Assembly (NCBI RefSeq): GCF_000787835.1
Contig: NZ_BBPP01000031.1
Span: 60,743 to 101,742 of the forward strand
Direction of reading: 5' to 3'
Length of the DNA stretch: 41,000 nt
From: Streptacidiphilus melanogenes
GTDB taxonomy: Bacteria > Actinomycetota > Actinomycetes > Streptomycetales > Streptomycetaceae
Both the position numbers and the translations under genes were made by a program. A model generated the notes under the pieces. The model was given only the letters and a program-made list of their open reading frames with translations, had not been told where the DNA came from and made no database searches. Positions 1 through 36,756 of the stretch are shown in pieces (within the stretch, counting starts at the first letter, position 1; each line of letters starts with the position of its first letter).

Positions 1-1452
1 GTCCTGGTCCTGTTCATCCGGGTGTGCGACTCCGTCGTCCTCGGATACTTCCTGGCCATCAACACCGCCTACCTCATCCTGGTCCTGATCGCAGCTGGCG
101 ACTTCGTGCGGCACCTGCGCCGGGCGCCGTTCTCCGGCTACGACGACATCGCAGCAAGCCCGTTCACCCCGCCCATCTCGCTGATCGTGCCCGCGCACAA
201 CGAAGAAGCCAGCATCGTCCCCGCCGTCGAGGCGATGCTCCTGCTTCGCTACCCCTCCTTCGAGGTGATCGTCGTCGACGACGGTTCGACGGACGCCACC
301 TTGGAGCGCCTGCGCGAGGCGTTCGACCTGATCGAGGTGCCGCACGTGGTACCCGGTGAGGTGGCCGTGCGAGGCGAGGTGGAGTCGGTCCATCTGCCCA
401 GTGGTGGCGCCGTCTCACTGCTGGTCGCCCGCAAGCGCAACGGCGGCAAGGCGGACGCTCTCAACCTCGGCATCGATCTGGCTCGCTACCCGTTGTTGTG
501 CATGGTCGACGCGGACTCGATCCTCGACCCGCAGGCGCTGCTGGCCATCGCCAAACCTTTCGCCGACGACCCGCTGCACGTGGTGGCCGCAGGCGGGGTC
601 GTCGGCGTCGCCAACGGCTGCACCGTGCTTGCGGGACGCATCGCGCAGGTCCGGATGCCGGACGGTCTGCTCGCCAGGATCCAGACGGTCGAGTACCTGC
701 GCGCGTTCCTGCTCGGCCGCACGGGCTGGTCACGGCTCGGCGGGCTGCTGGTGATCGCTGGGGCCTTCGGGCTCTTTCGCAGGGATGCCGTGGTCGCGAT
801 CGGCGGCATGGATCCGGACTGCCTGGGGGAGGACGCGGAGCTGGTCGTCCGCCTCCACCGGCACCAGCGCGAGCAGGGCCGTGATTACCGGATCGTGTTC
901 GTCGGCGAGCCGATCTCGTGGAGCGAGGCGCCGGAGACGGCGCGGATGCTCGGACGGCAGCGGCGACGCTGGCACCGCGGGCTGACCGAAATCCTGCTCA
1001 AACACCGCAGGCTGATCGGCAACCGCCGCTACGGCCGTGTCGGCGTGATGGCGCTCCCGTTCTACGTGGTGTTCGAGCTGCTGGCACCTGTCGTCGAACT
1101 CTCCGGTCTCGTCCTTGTGCCGCTCGGACTCCTGCTGGGGGCCGTCGACGTGGCCTTCCTATGGCGGTTCCTGCTCGTCGCTTACGGATACGCCGTCGTG
1201 GTGAGCCTGGCTGCCCTGGTGGCCGAGGAGTACGCGTTCCACCGCTACCCACGGTGGCGCGATCTTGGTGGCGCGGTCGTCGGGGCGTTCGCCGAGAACC
1301 TCGGCTACCGGCAGTACACGGCCTGGTGGCGGGTCCGCGGCATGTGGGACGCGCTGCGGGGCGCCCCACAGGTCTGGGGCGCCATGACCCGGCGCGGCTT
1401 CGGCACAGCGGACGACGAGCGCCCTGATGGCACGTCAGGCGAACGAGCCTGA
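1..1452 (+). CDS. Processive family 2 glycosyltransferase (5' end outside window)
   Basis: Membrane glycosyltransferase of the hyaluronan/cellulose/poly-GlcNAc synthase type, which polymerises a nucleotide-sugar at the inner membrane. The frame is open from base 1; the first GTG in it is at 22, so the true start probably lies upstream. Counting from that GTG: a membrane segment at about 5-25, DDGS (86-89), DAD (163-165), GED (269-271) and the processivity motif QRRRW (313-317), then further membrane helices at about 340-410. All catalytic motifs are intact. The gene converges on the NRPS-like gene and their 3' ends overlap by 18 bases. Related synthases (BcsA, PgaC) are controlled by cyclic-di-GMP, and a GGDEF/EAL gene sits 4 kb away, so exopolysaccharide synthesis is likely. 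The sugar cannot be read from the sequence. Confidence 0.85.
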   Translation, partial: VLVLFIRVCDSVVLGYFLAINTAYLILVLIAAGDFVRHLRRAPFSGYDDIAASPFTPPISLIVPAHNEEASIVPAVEAMLLLRYPSFEVIVVDDGSTDATLERLREAFDLIEVPHVVPGEVAVRGEVESVHLPSGGAVSLLVARKRNGGKADALNLGIDLARYPLLCMVDADSILDPQALLAIAKPFADDPLHVVAAGGVVGVANGCTVLAGRIAQVRMPDGLLARIQTVEYLRAFLLGRTGWSRLGGLLVIAGAFGLFRRDAVVAIGGMDPDCLGEDAELVVRLHRHQREQGRDYRIVFVGEPISWSEAPETARMLGRQRRRWHRGLTEILLKHRRLIGNRRYGRVGVMALPFYVVFELLAPVVELSGLVLVPLGLLLGAVDVAFLWRFLLVAYGYAVVVSLAALVAEEYAFHRYPRWRDLGGAVVGAFAENLGYRQYTAWWRVRGMWDALRGAPQVWGAMTRRGFGTADDERPDGTSGERA

Positions 1453-4400
1453 GGTCAACCGCGCCGCCTCCTCTTCCGCTGCCGGTAGCGGCGGCAGAAG
1501 GCTGTCGCGCTCGCGGAGCAGAGCGAGGTAGCGGGTCCGGGGCAGCAGCACGGCCCCCATCGCGCGCGCGTGTCTGCTGTCCCATTGGGCGTCCAGCACC
1601 GCCCCATCGACCTGGGCGAACCGCCGGGCCAGGTCCGCCACCGCGACCTGCGCGGCCCCGACCTGACGGCCGAACATCGAGTCCATGCTGAACACCTGGC
1701 CGATCCGGATGCCGAACACGCCGCCGATCAGCTGTTCGCCGTCCCACACTTCGACACTGTGCGCCCGGCCCATCTCATGCAGCCGGACCAGGCTGCGTAC
1801 GAGATCATCTGTCAGCCACAGCGGATCCCGCCCGGAGCGGCATTCGCGAACGACTGCCTTGAAGTCCCGGTTCGTGGTCGTCGTCCATTCCAGGCGGTTG
1901 CGCAGACGCCGCGCGAGCCTGTGGCTGAGGTGCACCTGACCGGGATACAGAACCGGCCGCGGATCGGGCGAATACCAGGCAACCGCCCAGGGATCGCCCG
2001 TGCGGGGGCCGACGAACCGGATCCTGCCCGCCGCCACCCCCTCGGCGGAGCTCGACTGGTGCAGGGCACGCGCGTCGTCGTCGGGGGCGGGCATGGGGAA
2101 GGCCCCGGCTTCGTAGCCCGCCAGCAACTGGTCAGGACCGATGTCGCCTCCGAACGCGACCGGCCCCTGTTTGGCGGACTGCGACAGATCGAGGTCGGCC
2201 CAGCCGACGTTCCCGCGCCCGCGCAGGGAGCCTCGCGGCGGCGGCAGGTAGCCGTCCGACTGGAGGAACCGCACGTAGGTGTCCAGCATGTGAAGGTCAA
2301 CGGGTGGGATCTCGATGGCGCTGTCCAGCAGGGCCCGTTCGGCGTTCGCCCGGGTGAATGCCGGGAAGACACCCTCGAGGTACATCTCGCTCACCGTGAG
2401 GTCGGCCCGGTTGCAGCGGTCCACGAACAGGGGCACGAACGGAGTCAGGGGGTGAGTGGGGTGGCCCGCCGCGAACTGGATGAGGTCGCGGACCCATGCG
2501 CCGTAGGGGACCAGCTCGACCGGGTAGCCGTGGAGCCGCAGGCAGTCGGCAAGCGAGCTGATCAGCGCAGGCCGGGGGTTGGTCAGGTGGTAGACCCTTC
2601 CGCGAGCCGGGCGGGTGGTGGAGATGTGACCGACCGCCCTGGCGAAGACGTCGGCGGGAAGGAAGTCCAAAGGCAGGCCGACCGCCGGACACTGGCCGGT
2701 GTCGGCGATGAACCTGATCAGCGCGCAGATTTCGGTACTGGTGTTGAGAACGCCGGTGTCGAGTGATCCGGTGATGTCCTGGAGCCGGTACACCGTCACC
2801 GGGACGCCTTCCTCGGCGGCCTGCCGCAGCATGGCCTCGGCCACCCATTTGGTCTCGACGTAGCCGACCGACAGGTAGTCGGCGTAGTCCAGTGGGGTCT
2901 CCTCGCTGACCGTCCGGATCCCAGCCGCTCCGAAGCCGGCCATGACGGCCAGACTGGACGCGTAGTGCAGTGGTACGGACCGCGGCGCGGCCAGACGGAC
3001 CAACTCGCGGACGGAGTCCACGTTGGCGCCCCGAAGGTCCTGGTAGGGGTAGATGAAGTTGACCAGTCCGCCCAGGTGGTAGACCAGATCGACGGTGTTC
3101 CCGAGCTCGGCGAAGACCTCCAGGGGCAGCCCGAGCCTCGGCCTGCTCAGATCGCCGGGCACCAGCAAGATCCTTTGGTTGCGCAGGACAGCGGGCAGGT
3201 CGCGGCGCAGGAACCGCTGGTGTGCCGCGCGGACGCGCTCCCACGCCTGTTCCCCATCCGCGGCGCGGACCAGGCAGTGCACGCGTGCCCGGGTGTGCTC
3301 CAGCAGATAGGCCAGCATGTGGGAGCCGCATAGGCCCGTCGCCCCGGTCAGCAGCACGTGCCCCGGATGCTGCCACACCGGCGCAGCGGCCGCGGCGTGT
3401 TCCCAGCTGAGCAGCAGCTGCGCTTCGGCGGCGAAGTCGGTGTCCACGTGTTCCGTTTGAGCCAGTGTGCCGGCGCGGGCCTGGCGCGCGTGTTCGGCGA
3501 AAGCCGAAAGGGTCGAGTGATGAAGGAGGGCGCGGGCCAGTTCGCGGACCTGATCGATGCCGATGCCGAACATGACCCTGGCGCGGGCCAGCATCTCCAT
3601 GGCCAGCAGCGAGTTCCCGCCGAGTTCGAAGAAGTCGTCCTCGGCCCTGATCCGCGGCACGTCCAAGATCCGTTCCCACAACTGCGCCATGCCGGCCTGC
3701 AGGGAGGCAGCCGGCGGCGCTGCTCCTTCCTCGACCGGGACCACGACCGGCTGAGCCTGGGGCATGGCCTTGCGGTCGATCTTGCCGTTGGGCGTCAGCG
3801 GCATGTCGGACAGCGGGGCCAGGACGCGGGGAACCATGTAGGCGGGCAGGAGTTCGGCCAGGGCGGCACGCAGCCGTTCCGGGGATGAGTCCTGCGGTGC
3901 CGTGCCGGCGCCGCACCTGGTGTAGAAGGCGGCCAGTTCCAGCTCCTGGCCCTGAGGGCCGGGGCGTGCGGTCACCACCGCCTGGGCCACACCCGGCTGG
4001 GAGCGCAGCACGCTCTCCACCTCTGCCGGGTCCACCCTGAAGCCGCGGATCTTGACCTGCTCGTCGACCCGGCCGAGGATCTCCAGGTTCCCGTCCGTGC
4101 GCCAGCGCCCCGTGTCGCCGGTGCGGTACATCCGCGCCCCTGGGACTTTCGCGTACGGGTCCGGCAGGAACTGCAGGGCAGTCAGGCCGGGCTGATCCCA
4201 GATGCCTTCCGCCAGGTGAGTCCCGCCGATCCAGACCTCCCCGCGCTCGCCCGGCGCGACGGGGCGCAGTCGCGGGTCGAGCACGTGCACGTGGGCGCCT
4301 GGTAGCGCCTGACCCACCGGCGCAGGCGCACTGCCGGGTGAGGACAGCAGCTGCTCGTTGAGCTCGCAAACGGTGGAGGTGATGACGGTCTCGGTCAGCC

Positions 4401-5571
4401 CGTAGGCGTTGACGAGCCGGGTGCCGGGGAAGTGCCGCAGCCAGGCGTGGCAGTCCTTCGCGTGGACGGTCTCGCCGCCCAGGATGACCAGGCGCACCGT
4501 GGACAGGCGCTCTTGGCCCGGGCCCAACAGGTCCAGTAGCCGGCGCCAGTAGGCGGGGGTGAGGTCGACGACCGTGACGCCGAGCTCGGGGACACCCTGC
4601 AGGAGGTCGGTGGGGGCCCACACCTGTGGGCCCGTCAGGACTGTCGCGGCGCCGTTGATGAGCGGCGCGAAGAGTTGCTCGAGCGAGGTGTCGAAACCCA
4701 GGGCGGCCAGGTGCAGCACCCGGTCCCCGGGAGCCAGGTCGTAGAAGTCGCCTGCGGCGGACAGGGCCCCTGCCCAGGCGTGGTGGGTGATCGCGACCCC
4801 TTTGGGCGGGCCCGTCGATCCGGAGGTGAAGATGACGTAGGCGACAGCGGCAGGATCCGGGTCCTGCGGCTGCCCGTCCGGCTCATCTGCAGGGTCGGCC
4901 AGCAGGTCCTCAACCGCCAGGACGCGGGGCGCTCCCGCAGCCCCGGCGCCGGGCTCGGAGCTCTTCGCGGCATCCGGAGACGACACGCCGAACAGGGGGC
5001 TGTACTGGTGGCTCGTCAGCACGTGTGTCGCTTCGACCTCGGCGGTGAGGCCGGTCAGGCGCCGTGCCGGAGCGGCGGGGTCCAGGGGGAGGAAGGCGGC
5101 ACCAGTGCGCTGCACGGCCAGGAGCGAGACGACCAGTTCGGGCACGCGACCCAGGCACACCGCCACCACCGCTCCTGGTTCAACGCCGCGTTCACGCAGC
5201 CGGCAAGCCAGTGAGTCGGCGCTGTCGTCCAGTGCGCGGTAGGGCAGCTCACCGCCTTCCCACAACACGGCGGGAGCGTTCGGGCTGGACTGCGCGAGCG
5301 ACCGGACTCGCGCGGAGACCGTCGCCGGCGGCGCGCCTGGTCCGATCGACGATTGCCGGCCGCCGACCGTGGGACGGCGGCCAAGCCGCCACTGCGCCGT
5401 CTTGCCGTCCAGGGCGGCGGCGGCCTCGGCAGCCGACGCGGCGGCCTCGCCGACCTGCCGCCAGCCTTCGGGCACCGGCAGGTACGAAGGCCACACGGCG
5501 TGGTGATCCTGGTCGTTGCGCAGCAGGAGCCAGGACTCGGGACGCTCGTCCGGGATCTGTTCTTCCGCCAC
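1435..5571 (-). CDS. NRPS-like fusion: MbtH-like, adenylation, carrier, thioester reductase, Aat-like domain
   Basis: A 1378-residue protein with an unusual order. Residues 12-65 resemble an MbtH chaperone (NDQDHHAVWP, PEGW) but are degenerate at the end. Adenylation spans about 85-605: FTSGSTGPPKG (248-258), FDTS with Asp294 where alpha-amino acids are bound, YRTGDTGRW (482-490), Lys598. Carrier has GGNSLL with Ser654. Thioester reductase has TGATGLCG (742-749) and YVETK (Tyr904, Lys908). Residues about 1138-1350 match leucyl/phenylalanyl-tRNA-protein transferase: GGDIGPDQLL, SPDPRPVL, HEMGRAHSVEVW, SMDSMF and LDAQ (Asp1327, Gln1329); the usual Glu of GESMF is Asp1297. GTG start follows a GGAGG site. 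It lies 18 bases after the GGDEF/EAL gene, probably one transcript. By inference an amino acid is activated, released as aldehyde or alcohol, and perhaps acylated from aminoacyl-tRNA. The product is unknown. Confidence 0.9.
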   Translation of the reverse strand: MAEEQIPDERPESWLLLRNDQDHHAVWPSYLPVPEGWRQVGEAAASAAEAAAALDGKTAQWRLGRRPTVGGRQSSIGPGAPPATVSARVRSLAQSSPNAPAVLWEGGELPYRALDDSADSLACRLRERGVEPGAVVAVCLGRVPELVVSLLAVQRTGAAFLPLDPAAPARRLTGLTAEVEATHVLTSHQYSPLFGVSSPDAAKSSEPGAGAAGAPRVLAVEDLLADPADEPDGQPQDPDPAAVAYVIFTSGSTGPPKGVAITHHAWAGALSAAGDFYDLAPGDRVLHLAALGFDTSLEQLFAPLINGAATVLTGPQVWAPTDLLQGVPELGVTVVDLTPAYWRRLLDLLGPGQERLSTVRLVILGGETVHAKDCHAWLRHFPGTRLVNAYGLTETVITSTVCELNEQLLSSPGSAPAPVGQALPGAHVHVLDPRLRPVAPGERGEVWIGGTHLAEGIWDQPGLTALQFLPDPYAKVPGARMYRTGDTGRWRTDGNLEILGRVDEQVKIRGFRVDPAEVESVLRSQPGVAQAVVTARPGPQGQELELAAFYTRCGAGTAPQDSSPERLRAALAELLPAYMVPRVLAPLSDMPLTPNGKIDRKAMPQAQPVVVPVEEGAAPPAASLQAGMAQLWERILDVPRIRAEDDFFELGGNSLLAMEMLARARVMFGIGIDQVRELARALLHHSTLSAFAEHARQARAGTLAQTEHVDTDFAAEAQLLLSWEHAAAAAPVWQHPGHVLLTGATGLCGSHMLAYLLEHTRARVHCLVRAADGEQAWERVRAAHQRFLRRDLPAVLRNQRILLVPGDLSRPRLGLPLEVFAELGNTVDLVYHLGGLVNFIYPYQDLRGANVDSVRELVRLAAPRSVPLHYASSLAVMAGFGAAGIRTVSEETPLDYADYLSVGYVETKWVAEAMLRQAAEEGVPVTVYRLQDITGSLDTGVLNTSTEICALIRFIADTGQCPAVGLPLDFLPADVFARAVGHISTTRPARGRVYHLTNPRPALISSLADCLRLHGYPVELVPYGAWVRDLIQFAAGHPTHPLTPFVPLFVDRCNRADLTVSEMYLEGVFPAFTRANAERALLDSAIEIPPVDLHMLDTYVRFLQSDGYLPPPRGSLRGRGNVGWADLDLSQSAKQGPVAFGGDIGPDQLLAGYEAGAFPMPAPDDDARALHQSSSAEGVAAGRIRFVGPRTGDPWAVAWYSPDPRPVLYPGQVHLSHRLARRLRNRLEWTTTTNRDFKAVVRECRSGRDPLWLTDDLVRSLVRLHEMGRAHSVEVWDGEQLIGGVFGIRIGQVFSMDSMFGRQVGAAQVAVADLARRFAQVDGAVLDAQWDSRHARAMGAVLLPRTRYLALLRERDSLLPPLPAAEEEAARLTSGSFA

Positions 5572-5589: not shown

Positions 5590-8500
5590 CTACCACGTGC
5601 CGTGGGTTGCGATCCCGGCTGACTCGGCCAGCAGGAACGACTGCGCTGCCTCCGAGTCCAGTGGCCGGGCGAAGAGGTAGCCCTGACCGAGAGGGCAGCC
5701 CATCGAGATCAGCAGGTCCCTTTGTGTGGTGTTCTCCACTCCCTCGGCGATGACCTTCATGCCGAGTGTGTCGGCGAGATGGGTGATCCCCTCGACCAGG
5801 GCGTACTGCTGGGGCGAGTGGCCGAGTTCGTCGATGAACGACTTGTCGATCTTCAGTATCGAGATCGGGAACTCCCTCAGGTAGCTGAGCGAGGAGTAGC
5901 CCGTGCCGAAGTCGTCGATCGCGATCCGGATGCCCATCTCCGTCAGGGCCTGCATCTCGGCCAGGACCCGCTCGTCCCGTCCCAGCAAAAGGCCCTCGGT
6001 CAGCTCCAGCACCAGCCGGGACGGGTCGACGCCGGAGCGGTCCAAGGACCACTGCATCACCTCCAGGAAGCTGCGGTCCCGGAATTGACGTGGCGAGACG
6101 TTCACACTCACGTACGGCAGTCCGGTGCTGGTGCCGTCGGCCAGTGCGACCGCGCGCTCGGCCAGCATCGAGTGCCACGCCACAGCCTCCTTGGACGCCT
6201 GTACCAGGACCCAGCTGCCCAGTGGCACGATCTGCCCGCTCTCCTCGGCGAGCGGGATGAACTGTTCTGGCATCACCATGCCGCGGGTGGAGTGAGGCCA
6301 CCGCAGCAGCGCCTCGAAGCCCGAGACCCGTCCGGTGCCGAGCTCGACGATGGGTTGGTAGACGACCTTGAACGACTCGACCTGCGCGCGGTCCAGGCTC
6401 TCTTGCAGGGCGTGCCGTTCCACCATGCCGCTCTGCAGCGCAGGGTGGTACCGACGCCACTGCCGCTTGCCGGCCGTCTTCGCCTCGTACAGGGCCAGGT
6501 CCGCGTGGGCCAGCAGCTCCACCGCGTCGAAGCTGTCCTCCGTCGTGGCGATGCCCACGCTTGCATAGACGCTCACCATTCCCACGCTGAGCCGGAAGGG
6601 CTCGGCGAAGACCTCGAGGACGTGGTCCGCGAAGGTCTCCACATCCTCGGGCGTCATCGGGTCCTCGACGAGAAGGGCGAACTCGTCACCGCCGATGCGT
6701 GCCGCGGTGTCCGAGGCACGGACGCTGGTCGACAGCCGTAGCGACAGGGCGACCAGAAGCTCGTCGCCGACGGCGTGGCCCTGCACGTCGTTGACCACCT
6801 TGAAGTCGTCCACGTCGACGAACAGCACGCCGACGACCTTTCCCGCACGCTGGCTCTGCGTCAGCGCGTGGGAGATGCGCTCCTGGAACAGCACCCGGTT
6901 GGCCAAACCGGTCAGCGGATCGTGAAAGGCCCGGTGGGTCAGCTCCCGCTCGAGCTTGCGCTGCTCGGTCACGTCGCGCAGGGTCAGCACGAGCCCTGCG
7001 ACGGTGGGGTCCTGGCGCAGATCGCTGCACCGGACCTCGACCTCGATGGTCGTCCGGTCGGCACGCAGCATCCGCCAGTGCTCACGGCGTCCCTGGAAGT
7101 CACGCTCCCGCATCTGGTCCAAGGTGCGGACAACTGCGCGGCTTTCCTGCGGCGGGACCAGCTCCGTGAGGCGGGATCCGACCAGCGTGGTCGAGCCCAG
7201 GAGCTGGTCGGCGGAGGGGCTCGCATACCGGATGCGGTCGTCGTCGAGGATGAGGATCACGTCCGACGCATTTTGAACCAGCGTTCTGAAGTAGGCCTCG
7301 CTGTTGCGCTTGCTGACCTCATGGCTGAGCAGGATGCGTTGCAGTGCCTGGGAGGCCTGGGTGGCCAGGGTCACGAGGCTGTCGTGGAGCACCGTCAGCT
7401 CGCGTTCGTCGCCGATGACCAGGAGCACACCGACGACAGGGTCCTTCGCGTCCGCCTTCAGCAGCGCGATCGGGCACACCAGCGCGCTGCGCCGGGGCTT
7501 GATCCATTCGAGCAGCGGCTTGGGCAGGCGCTCGGCGTTCAGTTGGCGTGGGCGGCCGTCGCCGACCAGTGCGCACAGTGCGGGGGCCGCCTGGGGCACG
7601 GCCGTCTCGAGTTCGCTTCGCGTCGCCCAGGCCGCCCAGGCGCCGCTCTCGTTGCTGATGGTGAACACCGCTTCCGGGCCGGAGCCACCCAGCAGTGCGG
7701 TGGTGGCAGCGTGGACCGCCGCGCAGATGTCGCTCAGGGAGTCCGCCTGACCGAGTTGGGCCGTAGCGGCACGCAGTACCTGTTCCCTGGTGACCGCCTG
7801 ACGGTGGGTGGCTGCCACGCCCGAGAGCCGGTAGAGCACCAGGAGGAACAAGATCGCGGAGAAGGCCCCGATCACGCCGGCGTTCCTGGTGTCCCCACGG
7901 GCGGCGGCCAGCAGCAGCATGCCGGGTGCGATCAGCGAGGCGAGGGTGAGCAGGCTCAGCCGTCCCCGTCCGGTCTCCGGTTTCGCTGGGACGGGCTGGG
8001 TCAGTGTCACCATCGACGGGTGCAGCGCGGCCGCGCCCCAGGCGGCGTAGAAGACCGCCCAGCCCAGGTCGACGATGGTGCCGGTCCGCCAGGTGCCGTA
8101 CAGCTGTATGAGCGCGTAGGCGATGTCGGAGGCGAGCAAACCCAGCGTGCCAATGGTGAGGAGCACCACCGAGGCGCTCTTGCCGCCGCGCGGGGCCAGC
8201 AGACGCAGCAGCATCGCGAGCACAAGGATGTCGCCCAACGGGTAGGCGATGGTGATGGCCTTCTGCAGCCACGACAGTCCGGCGGTGTGCGCGTAGGGGA
8301 CGATCACGTAGATCCAGCACAGCAGAGCCAGCCCGACAGTCAGCGTGAGCGCGTCGATGAAGCTGGCGCGGTCTCGGCGTGCCGAGCGCCATCGGACGAA
8401 GCCGAGCAGTCCGGCCGCGTAGAAGATGTACGTCGCCAGGTAGAAGCCGTCCGCCGTCGAGGGAAACGGGTCCTCGTGCAGGAATTGGATGAGCACGATC

Positions 8501-8736
8501 TGGGCGGACTGCCCGGCCGCGAAGCTCAGGTTCGCCGCCGCGAGAAAGAGCCACGGCAGCCGCCCGGCGGGCCGGTTGACGGCGACGCCGACGAGTATGG
8601 CCGACACACTGCTCAGGCCGATGGCCACGAAAATCAGCCGCTGACTGGAGAAGGCGTAGTAGAGGCAGGTGAGCAGGGTCACCAGGACACCGAAACCGGC
8701 CAGCAAACAAGGATGGGACCGCCGTTGAGAACTCAC
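5590..8736 (-). CDS. Membrane GGDEF/EAL cyclic-di-GMP enzyme with GAF and PAS domains
   Basis: Bifunctional diguanylate cyclase/phosphodiesterase setting cyclic-di-GMP levels. I place the start at a GTG at 8736, preceded by GGGAAGG; the frame stays open to 8886 but that stretch reads like leader. In the 1048-residue protein: about eight membrane helices (10-305), GAF-like region (320-465), PAS (478-595), GGDEF (600-755) and EAL (780-1030). The cyclase motif GGDEF (682-686) is intact, with an RxxD inhibitory site (RASD) five residues before IGGDEF. The phosphodiesterase side keeps EAL (808-810), DDFGTGYSS and EGVE. Both activities could therefore work. The layout resembles the RmdA/RmdB class of Streptomyces but I cannot assign an orthologue. 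It is the first gene of an operon with the NRPS-like fusion. Confidence 0.92.
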   Translation of the reverse strand: MSSQRRSHPCLLAGFGVLVTLLTCLYYAFSSQRLIFVAIGLSSVSAILVGVAVNRPAGRLPWLFLAAANLSFAAGQSAQIVLIQFLHEDPFPSTADGFYLATYIFYAAGLLGFVRWRSARRDRASFIDALTLTVGLALLCWIYVIVPYAHTAGLSWLQKAITIAYPLGDILVLAMLLRLLAPRGGKSASVVLLTIGTLGLLASDIAYALIQLYGTWRTGTIVDLGWAVFYAAWGAAALHPSMVTLTQPVPAKPETGRGRLSLLTLASLIAPGMLLLAAARGDTRNAGVIGAFSAILFLLVLYRLSGVAATHRQAVTREQVLRAATAQLGQADSLSDICAAVHAATTALLGGSGPEAVFTISNESGAWAAWATRSELETAVPQAAPALCALVGDGRPRQLNAERLPKPLLEWIKPRRSALVCPIALLKADAKDPVVGVLLVIGDERELTVLHDSLVTLATQASQALQRILLSHEVSKRNSEAYFRTLVQNASDVILILDDDRIRYASPSADQLLGSTTLVGSRLTELVPPQESRAVVRTLDQMRERDFQGRREHWRMLRADRTTIEVEVRCSDLRQDPTVAGLVLTLRDVTEQRKLERELTHRAFHDPLTGLANRVLFQERISHALTQSQRAGKVVGVLFVDVDDFKVVNDVQGHAVGDELLVALSLRLSTSVRASDTAARIGGDEFALLVEDPMTPEDVETFADHVLEVFAEPFRLSVGMVSVYASVGIATTEDSFDAVELLAHADLALYEAKTAGKRQWRRYHPALQSGMVERHALQESLDRAQVESFKVVYQPIVELGTGRVSGFEALLRWPHSTRGMVMPEQFIPLAEESGQIVPLGSWVLVQASKEAVAWHSMLAERAVALADGTSTGLPYVSVNVSPRQFRDRSFLEVMQWSLDRSGVDPSRLVLELTEGLLLGRDERVLAEMQALTEMGIRIAIDDFGTGYSSLSYLREFPISILKIDKSFIDELGHSPQQYALVEGITHLADTLGMKVIAEGVENTTQRDLLISMGCPLGQGYLFARPLDSEAAQSFLLAESAGIATHGTW

Positions 8737-9542
8737 GACCGCCACCTTCCCGGCCCCCTCGGCAGGCCAGAGGCCGACGAGAACGTCGCGGCGCAGCGGG
8801 GGCCGGCGCAGCCGCATGCAGACGGGTACGCGACTTCCGTAACCTGTCTCCCACTCCTTCGCAGTCCTTGGCTCGGCCCGGAACAACGCTATACCTGCCG
8901 ACTTTGACGTGCATTTGCTGAGCGCAGCCCAGGCTTCACTCGGCTCTTCCAGCGCCTTCGCGCCCGGCAGTCAGGCGCAGTCGCAGAAGATTTCGCGGTC
9001 AATCAACCGGGGAGAGGTGAGCGGGCGACGGCCGTATTCATCGAGCCGGGTAGCCCGGATGCCGACCTGGCTCGTGCACGGCGGCGACGTCCAACGCGGC
9101 ATTTGGCCGCCTGTGCCCGGTGCAGGACCGCGAAGCCGGGGCAACGATCCTGGCGGTGTCGTGAGCGGCTGTCGCCACGTCATCCACAACGGCACCCGCC
9201 CGAGCGGGTTCGATGGCCAACTCCCTTTCGGGGGTGCGGTCAAGGCACAGGGGCGGGCCTCGTCGCCCGGCAGGCGGTCCCAGGTCCTCGTGCCGCCCGC
9301 CCGCAGGGAGCCGCGACCTCTCCCGCGGCCTTCGGAGGGGACCGGATCGCCGCCGGCTGTCTGCGCCGGGTCCCTCGTTCGGGGCTGATCGCCGCAGGTG
9401 ACGCGAGTATCGGGGGCTGCTGGCGAGGCGGGACATCAGGTGGTGATCCCCATATGCTCCGCTGCAACGGAGCGTAGCTATTCGATTGCGTAGTGCTACT
9501 GGCCTGCGCGGCCGCGCTCGAGACGAAGAAGGAGGGATTGGC
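8737..9542. other. Intergenic region without a convincing gene
   Basis: About 800 bases between the divergent GGDEF/EAL and DUF11 genes. No frame shows coding-type bias with a ribosome site. It should contain promoters for both neighbours. The only structure I see is a small hairpin, ACCCGC/GCGGGT with a 4-base loop, at 9194-9209. Confidence 0.55.
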
Positions 9543-33801: not shown

Positions 33802-33996
33802 AAGCTGATCTTCGGGTCTGCGTGGACCGCTTCAACAACGTGCGTTGAAACCAATGGCCGAGCGGTTGACGATGGTCCCACATCTTGATCCCTGATGCGT
33901 AACTGCTCTCTATTTCATAAGAGTTGATGGGATTTCTCATCTCTCCAAGTGTGTCAGTGGCCTCTCGGGGGAACCGTGTGGGCCAGGGAGGGGCAG
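33802..33996 (+). promoter_or_regulatory. Promoter region of the CHAT operon
   Basis: An AT-richer stretch. An inverted repeat TTCAAC-AACGTGC-GTTGAA at 33831-33849 could be an operator. TTGATC (33885-33890) is followed 17 bases later by CTCTAT (33908-33913), a weak candidate promoter. Confidence 0.4.
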
Positions 33997-36756
33997 ATGA
34001 CTTTCGCGGCAGAAGAACTGCAGGATCTCAACCTTGCGCGGTTGAAAGCCGAGGCGGCTCTGACTGAGGCGGGCATTCACGTGGTGACGGGTGCGCTCAC
34101 GCCCGAGCGTGAGCAGGCCGTTCGAGATGCGGCCGAGCGGCTCACCAGCATCGCTGACCGTTTCCAGCGTGCGTTCGATGCGAGCCCGGGAGCTCCAATC
34201 CTGCCGGCCACGGAGCCGGCGACCGCGCTACTGCGTGCTCAGGCGCTCGCGGCGGAGAAGCTGGCAGAGCTTGAGGAAGCTCGTGGCGATGCGGCAGCGG
34301 CCACGTCGCTGTACGACAAGGCGGCAGACGCTTGGCTTGCGGCCGGACGCACAGCCGACTTGCTGCGCTGCTTGGCTGCGGCGCGCTACTCCGGGCGGGA
34401 TGAGAGGAACCTTGACGAGGACATCACCCGGCTGCTGGCTCGGCTCAACGCCATCGACCATTCTGATCAGCGCACGGCTGGCGAACGCGCGGCCCTGGAG
34501 AGCCAGCTTGCGTATGTGTACTACCACGCGGGGGATTCCGTGGAGGCTTTGCTGTACTTGGAGCGTGCCCGCGTTGCGTTCCGCGATTCGCTTGTGCCTC
34601 CGCTTCCGGTTCTCCCCGAGGGGCCGCTGGGGCTGTCACCTGAGGTCATGGCCTATCTGGTTGCGCTTCAGGAGCGGGGCGAGCACTGGCAGGTAGGGGC
34701 TGACATCTCGCAGCTGGCTCTGCAGTTGGAGCCGAACGCGGAGAACCAAGCGGCCTTCAAGGAAGCAGCCGCGGCAGCGGGTGCCGACCTCGATGAAGCT
34801 CCTTGGGACCGTCTTCTCGCCCACGCGGATCAGGATTTTGCGGAGGCCGTCGAGACATGGCGGGCCGCGGCATCGAAGCCGTCCCAGATCGGCACGTTGG
34901 CGGCCGAGGTCGCGGACCTTGACCAGATTGCGGCCTCAGGCCTTGCGTCGGGGCCTGAGCGCGATGCTGTGCTGCTGTCGGCGCTGGATCGGGCTGTGCA
35001 GTTGATCGCTGATGCACAGGCGATCAAGGATCCGACGCTGCTCCTGGTCATCGGCGATCTCGTCGCCATCGGCGAACGTACGCATGCCGATCTCCTGCTC
35101 TTGGTCGGGCGCCCCCAAGATGCGCTCGAAGCCGCCCAGCACGGTTTGAAGCTCCTGAACGAGCAGCGGCGCCCAGACGTGCGAGCATCTCTGCTCCTGC
35201 GCGTTGTCCGAGCGCATTTGGCGCTCGATTCCCCTGAGCAGGCGCTGCAAGCTGCCAGCGAGGGCATCGACTTGGTAGAAGAGCGGCTGCGGTACAACAC
35301 GAGCGGTCTCTACACCCGCGACAGCCGCCTGCGCCCGTGGGTGGAGCTGTACCAGGCCGCAGCACGCTGCGTCCTGGCCACCGGTCGGAGCGCGCACGGA
35401 GTCGTGTACTTTGCGATGCTTGCGAGAGCGCGACGAATCACATGGGACAAGCAAGGCCTGGACCTCGCGGGTCTGGAGGCTCTCGACGACGAGCGTCCGG
35501 CAGAGCCGGCTTCCACGCCCAAGACACCCAAGACGCCCAAGGACGCTAAGGCCGAGGACCTGCGGCGGCGGCGGCGCCTCGCGTGGGACGCGGCGCTCGC
35601 CCACACCTCAAGCTGGCCGCCCCCGTCCCCGGCGGCCGCGATAGTCCAGCAGCGCCTGCGCCGTGGCGAGGCTGCGCTTGTGTACTACTGGGTCGGTGAG
35701 CGCGATCTCGCTGTTGCCCTGCTTACACGCGACCGGGTGAGCGTTGACATCCGGCAGCTCACCGCTGCTCGGCGCGACCGGCTCGCTGAGTGCATCGATA
35801 CCCTGCTCGCGGAGGGCCAGGATCACTTCCAGGCGGCGCAGCGCGTCTTGAGGGACATCGCTGAGTGGGCCGATGCGCTGCTACCTGACGATCCTGCCCT
35901 GTTGTCCGCAGATCGCCTGTTCGTGAGTGCTCACGGGATCCTGCACGGCTTCCCCATTCACGCTCTCACGCTTCAGGGAACACAGCTCGGCGTTCGGTTG
36001 CCGGTCACCTACCTGCCCAATCTCAGCGTTCTTGCCGAGGAGGCTCCGCCGTTGCCCGGCCCGGACACCCTGATCCTCGGCGTGTCGCAGTTCCCCGCTC
36101 ACGCTGGAATGCTCGACCTCAGCGGCGCCGAACCGGCCTTGCGACAGGTTGCCGATCTGCACCGCGACGACGGCCGCCGAGTGACCACGCTTCCCCAGCA
36201 GACCTCTCGCCGCTACCTAAACGATCTGCTTCGCAGGCCCGGAGCAGAGCGATACGGGGTGCTGCACCTGAGCACGCATGGGAGCAGTGTCCTGGCCGCG
36301 TCGCCCTTGGAGTCGAGCCTGCTTCTCCACGACAGCCATATCGACGGCCTCGACATCGCCGCGTGGCGCCTGGACGGTGCTGTCGTCGTGGCGACGGCCT
36401 GCTCCTCCGGGCAGCGCTCCCTGCTCGGGCGCTCTGGTGCCGGACGGGGGCTGGCCGGAGACGAGATTTTAGGCCTCCAGGCTGGCTTCTTCGCCGCCGG
36501 GGCGGAGTCCGTCCTTGGGACATTGTGGCCGGTGAGCGTCGATGTCGCTGCCAGGGTCACGCACGGTTTCCATCACGCTCTGCTGGGGGGCGCGACCGCG
36601 GACCGAGCACTGCACCGCGCTATCGCCGAGTACCGGGTGTACGCAACAGGTACAGACGCCCTGTCCTATCGGTGGACTCCGTTCTTCCTCAGTGCCAGGA
36701 CTCGGCCCCGCCCCTTCCCGAGCGCCAACCCAGACCCGCAGGAGACGGCCCGATGA
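33997..36756 (+). CDS. CHAT-domain caspase-like protease with helical-repeat N-terminus
   Basis: A 919-residue protein. The ATG at 33997 has AGGGAGG 5 bases before it; a GTG at 33949 is in frame. Residues 1-500 are helical, TPR-like repeats (LLRAQALAAEKLAELEEARG, DAAAATSLYDKAADAWLAAG). A Lys/Thr/Pro linker (about 505-520) precedes the CHAT domain (about 640-910). The catalytic pair is present: His761 (LHLSTHG) and Cys802 (ATACSSG), with GILHGFPIHAL and GTLWPVSVDVA around them. CHAT proteases are clan CD peptidases; in bacteria they act in defence and programmed death (gasdermin activation, Craspase). The next gene overlaps by 4 bases. Confidence 0.9.
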   Translation: MTFAAEELQDLNLARLKAEAALTEAGIHVVTGALTPEREQAVRDAAERLTSIADRFQRAFDASPGAPILPATEPATALLRAQALAAEKLAELEEARGDAAAATSLYDKAADAWLAAGRTADLLRCLAAARYSGRDERNLDEDITRLLARLNAIDHSDQRTAGERAALESQLAYVYYHAGDSVEALLYLERARVAFRDSLVPPLPVLPEGPLGLSPEVMAYLVALQERGEHWQVGADISQLALQLEPNAENQAAFKEAAAAAGADLDEAPWDRLLAHADQDFAEAVETWRAAASKPSQIGTLAAEVADLDQIAASGLASGPERDAVLLSALDRAVQLIADAQAIKDPTLLLVIGDLVAIGERTHADLLLLVGRPQDALEAAQHGLKLLNEQRRPDVRASLLLRVVRAHLALDSPEQALQAASEGIDLVEERLRYNTSGLYTRDSRLRPWVELYQAAARCVLATGRSAHGVVYFAMLARARRITWDKQGLDLAGLEALDDERPAEPASTPKTPKTPKDAKAEDLRRRRRLAWDAALAHTSSWPPPSPAAAIVQQRLRRGEAALVYYWVGERDLAVALLTRDRVSVDIRQLTAARRDRLAECIDTLLAEGQDHFQAAQRVLRDIAEWADALLPDDPALLSADRLFVSAHGILHGFPIHALTLQGTQLGVRLPVTYLPNLSVLAEEAPPLPGPDTLILGVSQFPAHAGMLDLSGAEPALRQVADLHRDDGRRVTTLPQQTSRRYLNDLLRRPGAERYGVLHLSTHGSSVLAASPLESSLLLHDSHIDGLDIAAWRLDGAVVVATACSSGQRSLLGRSGAGRGLAGDEILGLQAGFFAAGAESVLGTLWPVSVDVAARVTHGFHHALLGGATADRALHRAIAEYRVYATGTDALSYRWTPFFLSARTRPRPFPSANPDPQETAR

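Follow-up and report, generated by a model that had tools for sequence, protein, structure and literature searches.

Livipeptin, from Streptomyces lividans 66, is the closest described relative of the system presented here. According to the available text of its report (PMC10548850), the livipeptin genes (Sli0883-0885) encode a non-ribosomal peptide synthetase (NRPS) that has adenylation, peptidyl carrier and reductase domains (A-PCP-R) and no condensation domain, a leucyl/phenylalanyl-tRNA transferase (LFT) and an N-acyltransferase. The inhibitory fraction needs all three genes and acts on trypsin and, less strongly, on papain; RNase suppresses the activity in a cell-free setting, and chemical characterization of the compound has proven difficult. 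The same text already reports fusions of NRPS and LFT, and the clade it describes includes Streptacidiphilus and Kitasatospora. MbtH, GGDEF, diguanylate and cyclic di-GMP (c-di-GMP) are not mentioned in its main text. Here we describe a gene of Streptacidiphilus melanogenes that joins an MbtH-like part, A-PCP-R and LFT in one reading frame and lies next to a gene for a membrane GGDEF-EAL protein. Both are located in a 41,000-nucleotide stretch of contig NZ_BBPP01000031.1 (positions 60,743 to 101,742), hereafter the window. The two genes adjoin each other in almost every related locus, and the same partner family also accompanies an unrelated synthase.

Domain organization of the fused protein

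A preliminary description of the gene, made from its sequence, had proposed MbtH-like, adenylation, carrier, thioester reductase and Aat-type domains in a single chain of 1378 residues, and searches with Pfam and NCBIfam confirm all five (Table 1). The MbtH match (PF03621, residues 8-45) is partial, covering profile positions 6-43 of 53, and scores 35.8 bits against a cut-off of 27. It is followed by AMP-binding (93-458), AMP-binding_C (517-597), PP-binding (629-694) and NAD_binding_4 (741-980), all above their Pfam cut-offs; the NCBIfam thioester reductase model TIGR01746 covers residues 738-1108, also above cut-off. Asp294, Ser654, Tyr904/Lys908 and the motifs SMDSMF and LDAQ lie where they had been placed. 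Neither a condensation nor a thioesterase domain was detected in the Pfam and NCBIfam scans, leaving the A-PCP-R organization of the livipeptin type, and the LFT fused to it is the second hallmark of that type.

The C-terminal region, for which a conserved-domain search had been proposed, matches the LFT family (Leu_Phe_trans, PF03588) over residues 1196-1342 at 140.9 bits against a cut-off of 22.7. It also matches the E. coli LFT structures 2z3k, 2dps and 2cxa at E-values of about 1e-36 (phmmer). On the NCBIfam model TIGR00667 (aat) the fused protein scores 125.7 bits, under the housekeeping cut-off of 143.55, and the domain is therefore considered a divergent LFT. AlphaFold models of the domain from four sequences are poor, with a mean predicted local distance difference test (pLDDT) of 41, and the fold is assigned from sequence profiles.

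Only two LFT matches occur in this genome, and both form the ends of fused proteins: the window copy and a paralogue on contig C99. The same architecture, when sought in other genomes of the family, was found in four other Streptacidiphilus genomes, giving six fused proteins in five genomes. With five further examples known, the paralogue among them, and all six grouping in a single clade, the fusion is considered real. The linker between reductase and LFT keeps the coding GC pattern by codon position (0.77/0.54/0.85). An artificial joining of two genes by frameshift or assembly error, which the preliminary description had named as a possible refutation, is excluded by the recurrence in five genomes (with two fusions here), the single clade and the even codon-position GC.

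Distribution and origin of the fusion

We surveyed 394 genomes of the family Streptomycetaceae with PF03588 and obtained a match in 68. In total, 74 LFT loci were examined, two from this genome and 72 as fetched stretches, each designated by an L number where it needs to be told apart. An LFT together with a reductase gene is held by 62 of them (A-PCP-R, except for a carrier-reductase remnant in L077), while 12 have no reductase gene in the stretch, a count that includes L072, which ends at a contig edge. L028-L030 were set aside before counting, as they are the same loci as L056, L080 and L060. L031, an A-PCP-R gene with no LFT, does not enter the counts of LFTs and partners and is included among the 62 A domains and 62 N-termini analyzed; L077, with its split LFT, is among the 62 loci of the partner count and outside the 61 LFTs. 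The LFT of L066 likewise looks split or eroded, and both L066 and L077 (there with A-PCP-R) appear to be decaying or misassembled.

One-frame fusions occur in six of the 62 loci, all from Streptacidiphilus. In the A-PCP-R tree they form one clade (support 0.997), nested in a Streptacidiphilus clade (0.999) to which two unfused pairs also belong, for which reason a single fusion event is the simplest account of them. In 39 of 56 unfused pairs, the A-PCP-R stop and a start codon for the LFT frame overlap by four bases, so the fusion could have come from loss of one stop. The MbtH part is characteristic of the family rather than a peculiarity of the window protein. A profile made from family N-termini detects it at E <1e-3 in 58 of the 62 proteins, a count that leans towards detection, as 38 of these proteins went into the profile. 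The misses are L060, which has masked bases (the L030 copy of this locus shows MbtH in a different frame), L086, L064 and L031, the outsider. With the Pfam model, three of four other fused proteins score above the cut-off and L062 falls below it at 23.2.

Plasmid records were also searched. None covers 80% of the whole fused protein at one place, and the matches listed (best 20 of 3265) are A-PCP-R-like stretches ending near residue 1110-1141. The LFT domain matches 38 plasmid records, nearly all outside actinomycetes and one in Streptomyces sp. NBC_01216. These searches were aimed at a livipeptin cluster, and no S. lividans plasmid is among the matches listed.

Conserved association with a GGDEF-EAL protein

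A GGDEF-EAL partner adjoins the synthetase in 61 of the 62 loci with reductase and LFT, in divergent orientation in 50 and co-directional in 11. In 60 loci, 157-773 bp separate the partner match from the A or carrier domain; in L077, which has no A domain, the distance is 1946 bp. By rough gene calls, the next commonest neighbor family is present in 16 loci. A search of this genome with the partner gave nine matches, of which only two, both beside fused genes, reach the N-terminal half. The GGDEF and EAL catalytic motifs are intact in the window partner and in all 59 linked partners with letters at these positions, the remaining two of 61 rows being gaps. The N-terminal half is modelled with a mean pLDDT of 59 (AlphaFold) and was used for helix counting only; a relative of the partner shows a weak GAF match. 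In open-licence full texts, we found no report of GGDEF-EAL proteins paired with NRPS-LFT or with alpha-oxoamine synthase, a weak null given that a similar query missed the livipeptin paper.

Twenty further GGDEF-EAL loci away from LFT genes were chosen from a longer list. In 11 of these, the stretch also encodes a methyltransferase together with a pyridoxal phosphate (PLP) enzyme of the BioF/Kbl/serine-palmitoyltransferase class. The PLP enzyme shares one frame with the GGDEF-EAL protein in eight loci and is the next gene in three; it was not matched in the other nine of the 20 chosen loci, of which L160 and L161 are on short contigs. In L147 (6903-11384, minus strand), as in L148-L153 and L155, a 10-helix PAS-GGDEF-EAL protein is joined to a C-terminal alpha-oxoamine synthase in one polypeptide. 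The methyltransferase in the same stretch as such fusions is related to the SCO2525 family, a label taken from the copy in L158.

The nearest solved structures of the PLP enzyme are of BioF/serine-palmitoyltransferase-type classes. It scores 65.5 bits (E 3e-18) on the alpha-hydroxyketone autoinducer synthase model, far under the cut-off of 428, and better on the bioF and serine palmitoyltransferase models, also under cut-off. At E 1e-20 it is absent from the LFT-linked stretches. Across the class, it lies beside the GGDEF-EAL gene in one (L169) of ten stretches fetched from other families, the other nine having none. Aminoketones made by alpha-oxoamine synthases are precursors of autoinducers such as CAI-1, and the Vibrio CAI-1 synthase belongs to this enzyme class.

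Predicted substrates

The motif-anchored pocket code of the A domain in the fused protein is DTEDIGAITK. The pattern DTED[IVL]GA[IV]T[KR] is present in 60 of the 62 A domains; the exceptions are L064, whose frame is broken, and L031, an unrelated enzyme. This conservation points to one fixed substrate bound by a pocket with two acidic residues. By the code rule, two acidic residues in the adenylation pocket suggest a basic substrate. The A domain is thus suggested to load Arg or Lys, which the pocket code does not separate; arginine is predicted across the livipeptin clade in the available text of PMC10548850.

For E. coli LFT, the available text of PMC4964394 states that E156 and Q188 are thought to define specificity for Arg/Lys acceptors, and it describes the enzyme with the FemABX/GNAT enzymes. 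A GNAT-like fold, which the preliminary description would have taken to refute the Aat assignment, is therefore no argument against it. At the corresponding positions, all 61 reductase-linked LFTs have Asp (E156), Gln (Q188), Asp (D186) and Trp (W111). Six stand-alone LFTs from other families of the class, taken as housekeeping, all have Glu at the E156 position, and the reductase-linked LFTs also differ from them at the Y120 and G155 positions in 61/61. The Glu-to-Asp change had been read as a hint at altered specificity; being fixed in 61/61, it is a mark of the clade, and a change of specificity peculiar to this protein is ruled out. Among the 11 other LFTs of the survey, the E156 position is Asp in nine and Glu in two, and the Q188 position Gln in eight and Glu in three.

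With Asp and Gln at the E156 and Q188 positions throughout, the acceptor pocket would fit the amino acid expected from the A domain. The donor-pocket positions M144, F153, L170, F173 and I185 are V/A/T, L/F/I, V/I/L, L and L/V in the reductase-linked LFTs, a set compatible with a hydrophobic donor (Leu or Phe, for example) but not decisive. In the LFT tree, the 61 form a group at weak support (0.464). A wider clade (0.912) takes in ten of the eleven other survey LFTs and leaves out the E. coli and stand-alone enzymes.

Proposed pathway and alternative explanations

It is reasonably probable that the fused protein is a self-contained, livipeptin-type synthetase of tRNA-dependent dipeptide aldehydes and that it has a functional link of some kind to c-di-GMP. 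In the proposed pathway, the A domain, aided by its own MbtH part, would load one conserved basic amino acid (Arg or Lys) onto Ser654. The LFT would then move Leu, Phe or a similar residue from aminoacyl-tRNA to the free alpha-amine of the loaded residue, with Asp1297/Gln1329 standing in for E. coli Glu156/Gln188, the pair that is said to bind the acceptor's basic side chain (PMC4964394, available text). Finally, the reductase would free the dipeptidyl aldehyde. Domain content, residues and gene pairing are seen directly in the sequences; we infer loading, transfer and reductive release from family knowledge and the livipeptin experiments. The preliminary description had also proposed a tRNA-dependent dipeptide, released reductively with no condensation domain; this outline fits the anatomy and the livipeptin proposal, and its implied novelty is largely gone because that proposal and the fusions are already in print.

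What may follow release is extrapolation on our part. As no N-acyltransferase gene was found nearby, the free amine may cyclize onto the aldehyde, with oxidation to a pyrazinone, as would be expected for an uncapped dipeptide aldehyde by analogy with the aureusimines; alternatively, an unlinked enzyme may cap it. The product may then act in concert with the membrane GGDEF-EAL protein, its likeliest role being that of a signal tuning c-di-GMP. The system may therefore be a livipeptin-like variant that makes an uncapped X-Arg/Lys aldehyde, perhaps a pyrazinone, and signals via c-di-GMP. More tentatively, and with some doubt, the loci could be interchangeable signal modules of actinomycetes in which a membrane GGDEF-EAL receptor is combined, in some cases within a single polypeptide, with either an NRPS-LFT (giving a dipeptide aldehyde or pyrazinone) or an alpha-oxoamine synthase (giving an aminoketone). 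The 10-helix domain would then sense this product as an autoinducer, setting c-di-GMP and hence development.

Several points weigh against this interpretation, which is built on sequence and analogy and concerns a predicted product and substrate. The A-domain call depends on motif-anchored pocket positions and their numbering and on general code rules, and six pocket-code strings were not found in print. An N-acyltransferase is needed in livipeptin and none was found here, so the product may differ; neighbors were Pfam-scanned at few loci only, and some scanned proteins matched no family. One family member, L064, has no partner: an O-methyltransferase and a P450 lie downstream, the next gene has no family match, and its genome gives no match to the N-terminal half of the partner at E 1e-10. 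The membrane domain of the partner is common in actinobacteria (103 of 394 genomes across the class) and is thus not specific to this product. In addition, most loci come from Kitasatospora and share descent, and the 61 of 62 are not 61 independent events.

The likeliest alternative, though we think it improbable, is that the product is simply a protease inhibitor of the livipeptin type: an unlinked acyltransferase would cap the dipeptide aldehyde, its targets would be trypsin- or papain-like proteases, and the GGDEF-EAL neighbor would only time the cluster. The logic of A-PCP-R plus LFT is the same as in livipeptin, whose fraction inhibits trypsin and, less, papain, and natural-product formation in streptomycetes is reported to be under c-di-GMP control (PMC7026642, available text). 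However, no acyltransferase family was found among the scanned neighbors, and a membrane protein with predicted c-di-GMP synthesis or breakdown activity would be an odd local regulator, the more so as its family also accompanies an unrelated synthase. A signal is tentatively favored over a plain inhibitor because both synthases would give small amine-carbonyl products.

It is improbable that the pairing merely reflects shared ancestry of the neighborhood and has no functional meaning. The predominance of related Kitasatospora loci speaks for such an account, but the adjacency holds in both gene orientations, in three genera and at two loci of a single genome whose outer flanks differ, and the remaining neighbors vary. 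This retention speaks for a working link despite shared descent, as does the finding of the same partner family fused to or beside another synthase. Very improbable is an LFT acting on proteins in the N-degron pathway, fused to an independent A-PCP-R enzyme with an unrelated job: this genome has no LFT outside the fused proteins and the catalytic D and Q are kept, but reductase-linked LFTs depart from stand-alone ones at the E156, Y120 and G155 positions, each in 61/61, and are coupled to A-PCP-R by the four-base overlap in 39/56 unfused pairs.

Neighboring genes and related loci

Among the Pfam-scanned neighbors of the two loci in this genome, a set that covers some of the open reading frames and includes proteins with no match, no N-acyltransferase family was found; the same holds for acyltransferase families among nine Pfam-scanned neighbors of three other fused loci. 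Elsewhere, the window encodes a 935-residue protein with a C-terminal CHAT protease domain (33949-36756, plus strand) as well as NB-ARC/TPR and AAA proteins. To the left of the window, a protein with a Pro-kumamolisin activation domain (L007, 14400-16061, plus strand) is encoded a few kb from the possible aldehyde-inhibitor locus. Convergent to the paralogous fused gene is a gene for a PAS-GAF-SpoIIE phosphatase with an anti-sigma-like ATPase domain (L179, 127-2196, minus strand), a relative of which adjoins the fused gene in L060 (cluster c12).

Other LFT contexts were observed in the survey. A second LFT class occurs in L058, L065, L093, L099 and L103, near multi-module NRPS genes in the first four; in L058, both neighbors of the LFT are LuxR-type regulators (Pfam). 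In a third context (L091, L123, L124), the LFT lies near an NRPS gene and a free-standing MbtH. A C-A-PCP gene (C, condensation) that carries a TubC docking part is also present there, as are genes for a carbamoyltransferase and a fatty-acid desaturase, as checked with Pfam in L123. In L120 (7560-10299, minus strand), an LFT frame overlaps an A-PCP frame with no reductase, near a gene of the metallo-beta-lactamase fold.

Table 1. Features of the fused synthetase gene and its partner in the window.
Feature	Position	Strand	Details
Fused MbtH-A-PCP-R-LFT protein	1435..5571	minus	1378 aa, GTG start, single frame
GGAGG	6 nt 5' of GTG start of fused gene		read by eye
MbtH-like N-terminus	5437..5550	minus	residues 8-45; end of MbtH profile missing (Pfam)
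Adenylation domain	3781..5295	minus	residues 93-597; Asp294, Glu298, Asp336 in pocket, Lys597
Peptidyl carrier domain	3490..3687	minus	residues 629-694; Ser654
Thioester reductase	2248..3360	minus	residues 738-1108; Tyr904 and Lys908
LFT domain	1546..2139	minus	residues ~1145-1342
LFT residues (E. coli numbers)			Trp1252 (W111), Asp1297 (E156), Asp1327 (D186), Gln1329 (Q188)
Partner gene, PAS-GGDEF-EAL	5590..8886	minus	about ten predicted helices and GAF-like region; 18 bp upstream of fused gene, putative operon
Partner membrane and GAF-like input region	7327..8754	minus	residues 45-520; low-confidence model

Significance and relation to known systems

To our knowledge, the signals that feed the c-di-GMP enzymes of Streptomyces are largely unknown. 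The messenger itself controls the switch to sporulation in this genus (PMC6205966, available text). Livipeptin showed that a tRNA-using transferase is able to replace a condensation domain; the conserved tie to a c-di-GMP enzyme now gives the synthetase a testable role. If the synthase product is indeed the ligand, a single discovery would yield both the product and a signal. With its MbtH part included, the fused protein also provides a convenient single-chain enzyme for testing the tRNA-dependent step.

The partner resembles CdgF and CdgC of Streptomyces (10TM-PAS-PAC-GGDEF-EAL, with TM for transmembrane helices) in overall architecture, a likeness drawn from their description; the available text of that paper (PMC6205966), which sets at least 45% identity as its cut-off for CdgF, does not mention 'aminotransferase' or 'non-ribosomal'. 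The LFT domain shares its Pfam family with housekeeping Aat (2z3k, 2dps, 2cxa) and keeps D186, Q188 and W111. It differs in having Asp for E156 and Leu for Y120, in scoring under the TIGR00667 cut-off and in being joined to an NRPS-like enzyme. From residue 16 through the A domain, the fused protein aligns with PDB 4gr5, which we take to be SlgN1, an MbtH-A fusion. Unlike the fused protein, that 570-residue chain has room for neither a reductase nor an LFT.

The fused protein also matches the AusA-type (aureusimine) model NF047350 of NCBIfam, under its cut-off. AusA reductively releases an uncapped dipeptide aldehyde, which cyclizes to a pyrazinone (aureusimine), and uses a condensation domain and two A domains; in the fused protein, the LFT would form the bond instead. 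The nearest likeness is to livipeptin, in which an A-PCP-R protein is likewise combined with an L/F transferase in place of a condensation domain. Clusters of the livipeptin branch contain an N-acyltransferase, an O-methyltransferase and a butyryl-CoA dehydrogenase (PMC10548850, available text), whereas here there is a GGDEF-EAL partner, with no acyltransferase found among the scanned neighbors. The chemistry is a variant of the livipeptin kind already described; what is new is that the synthetase is so consistently paired with a c-di-GMP enzyme, and that in other loci a second class of synthase takes its place.

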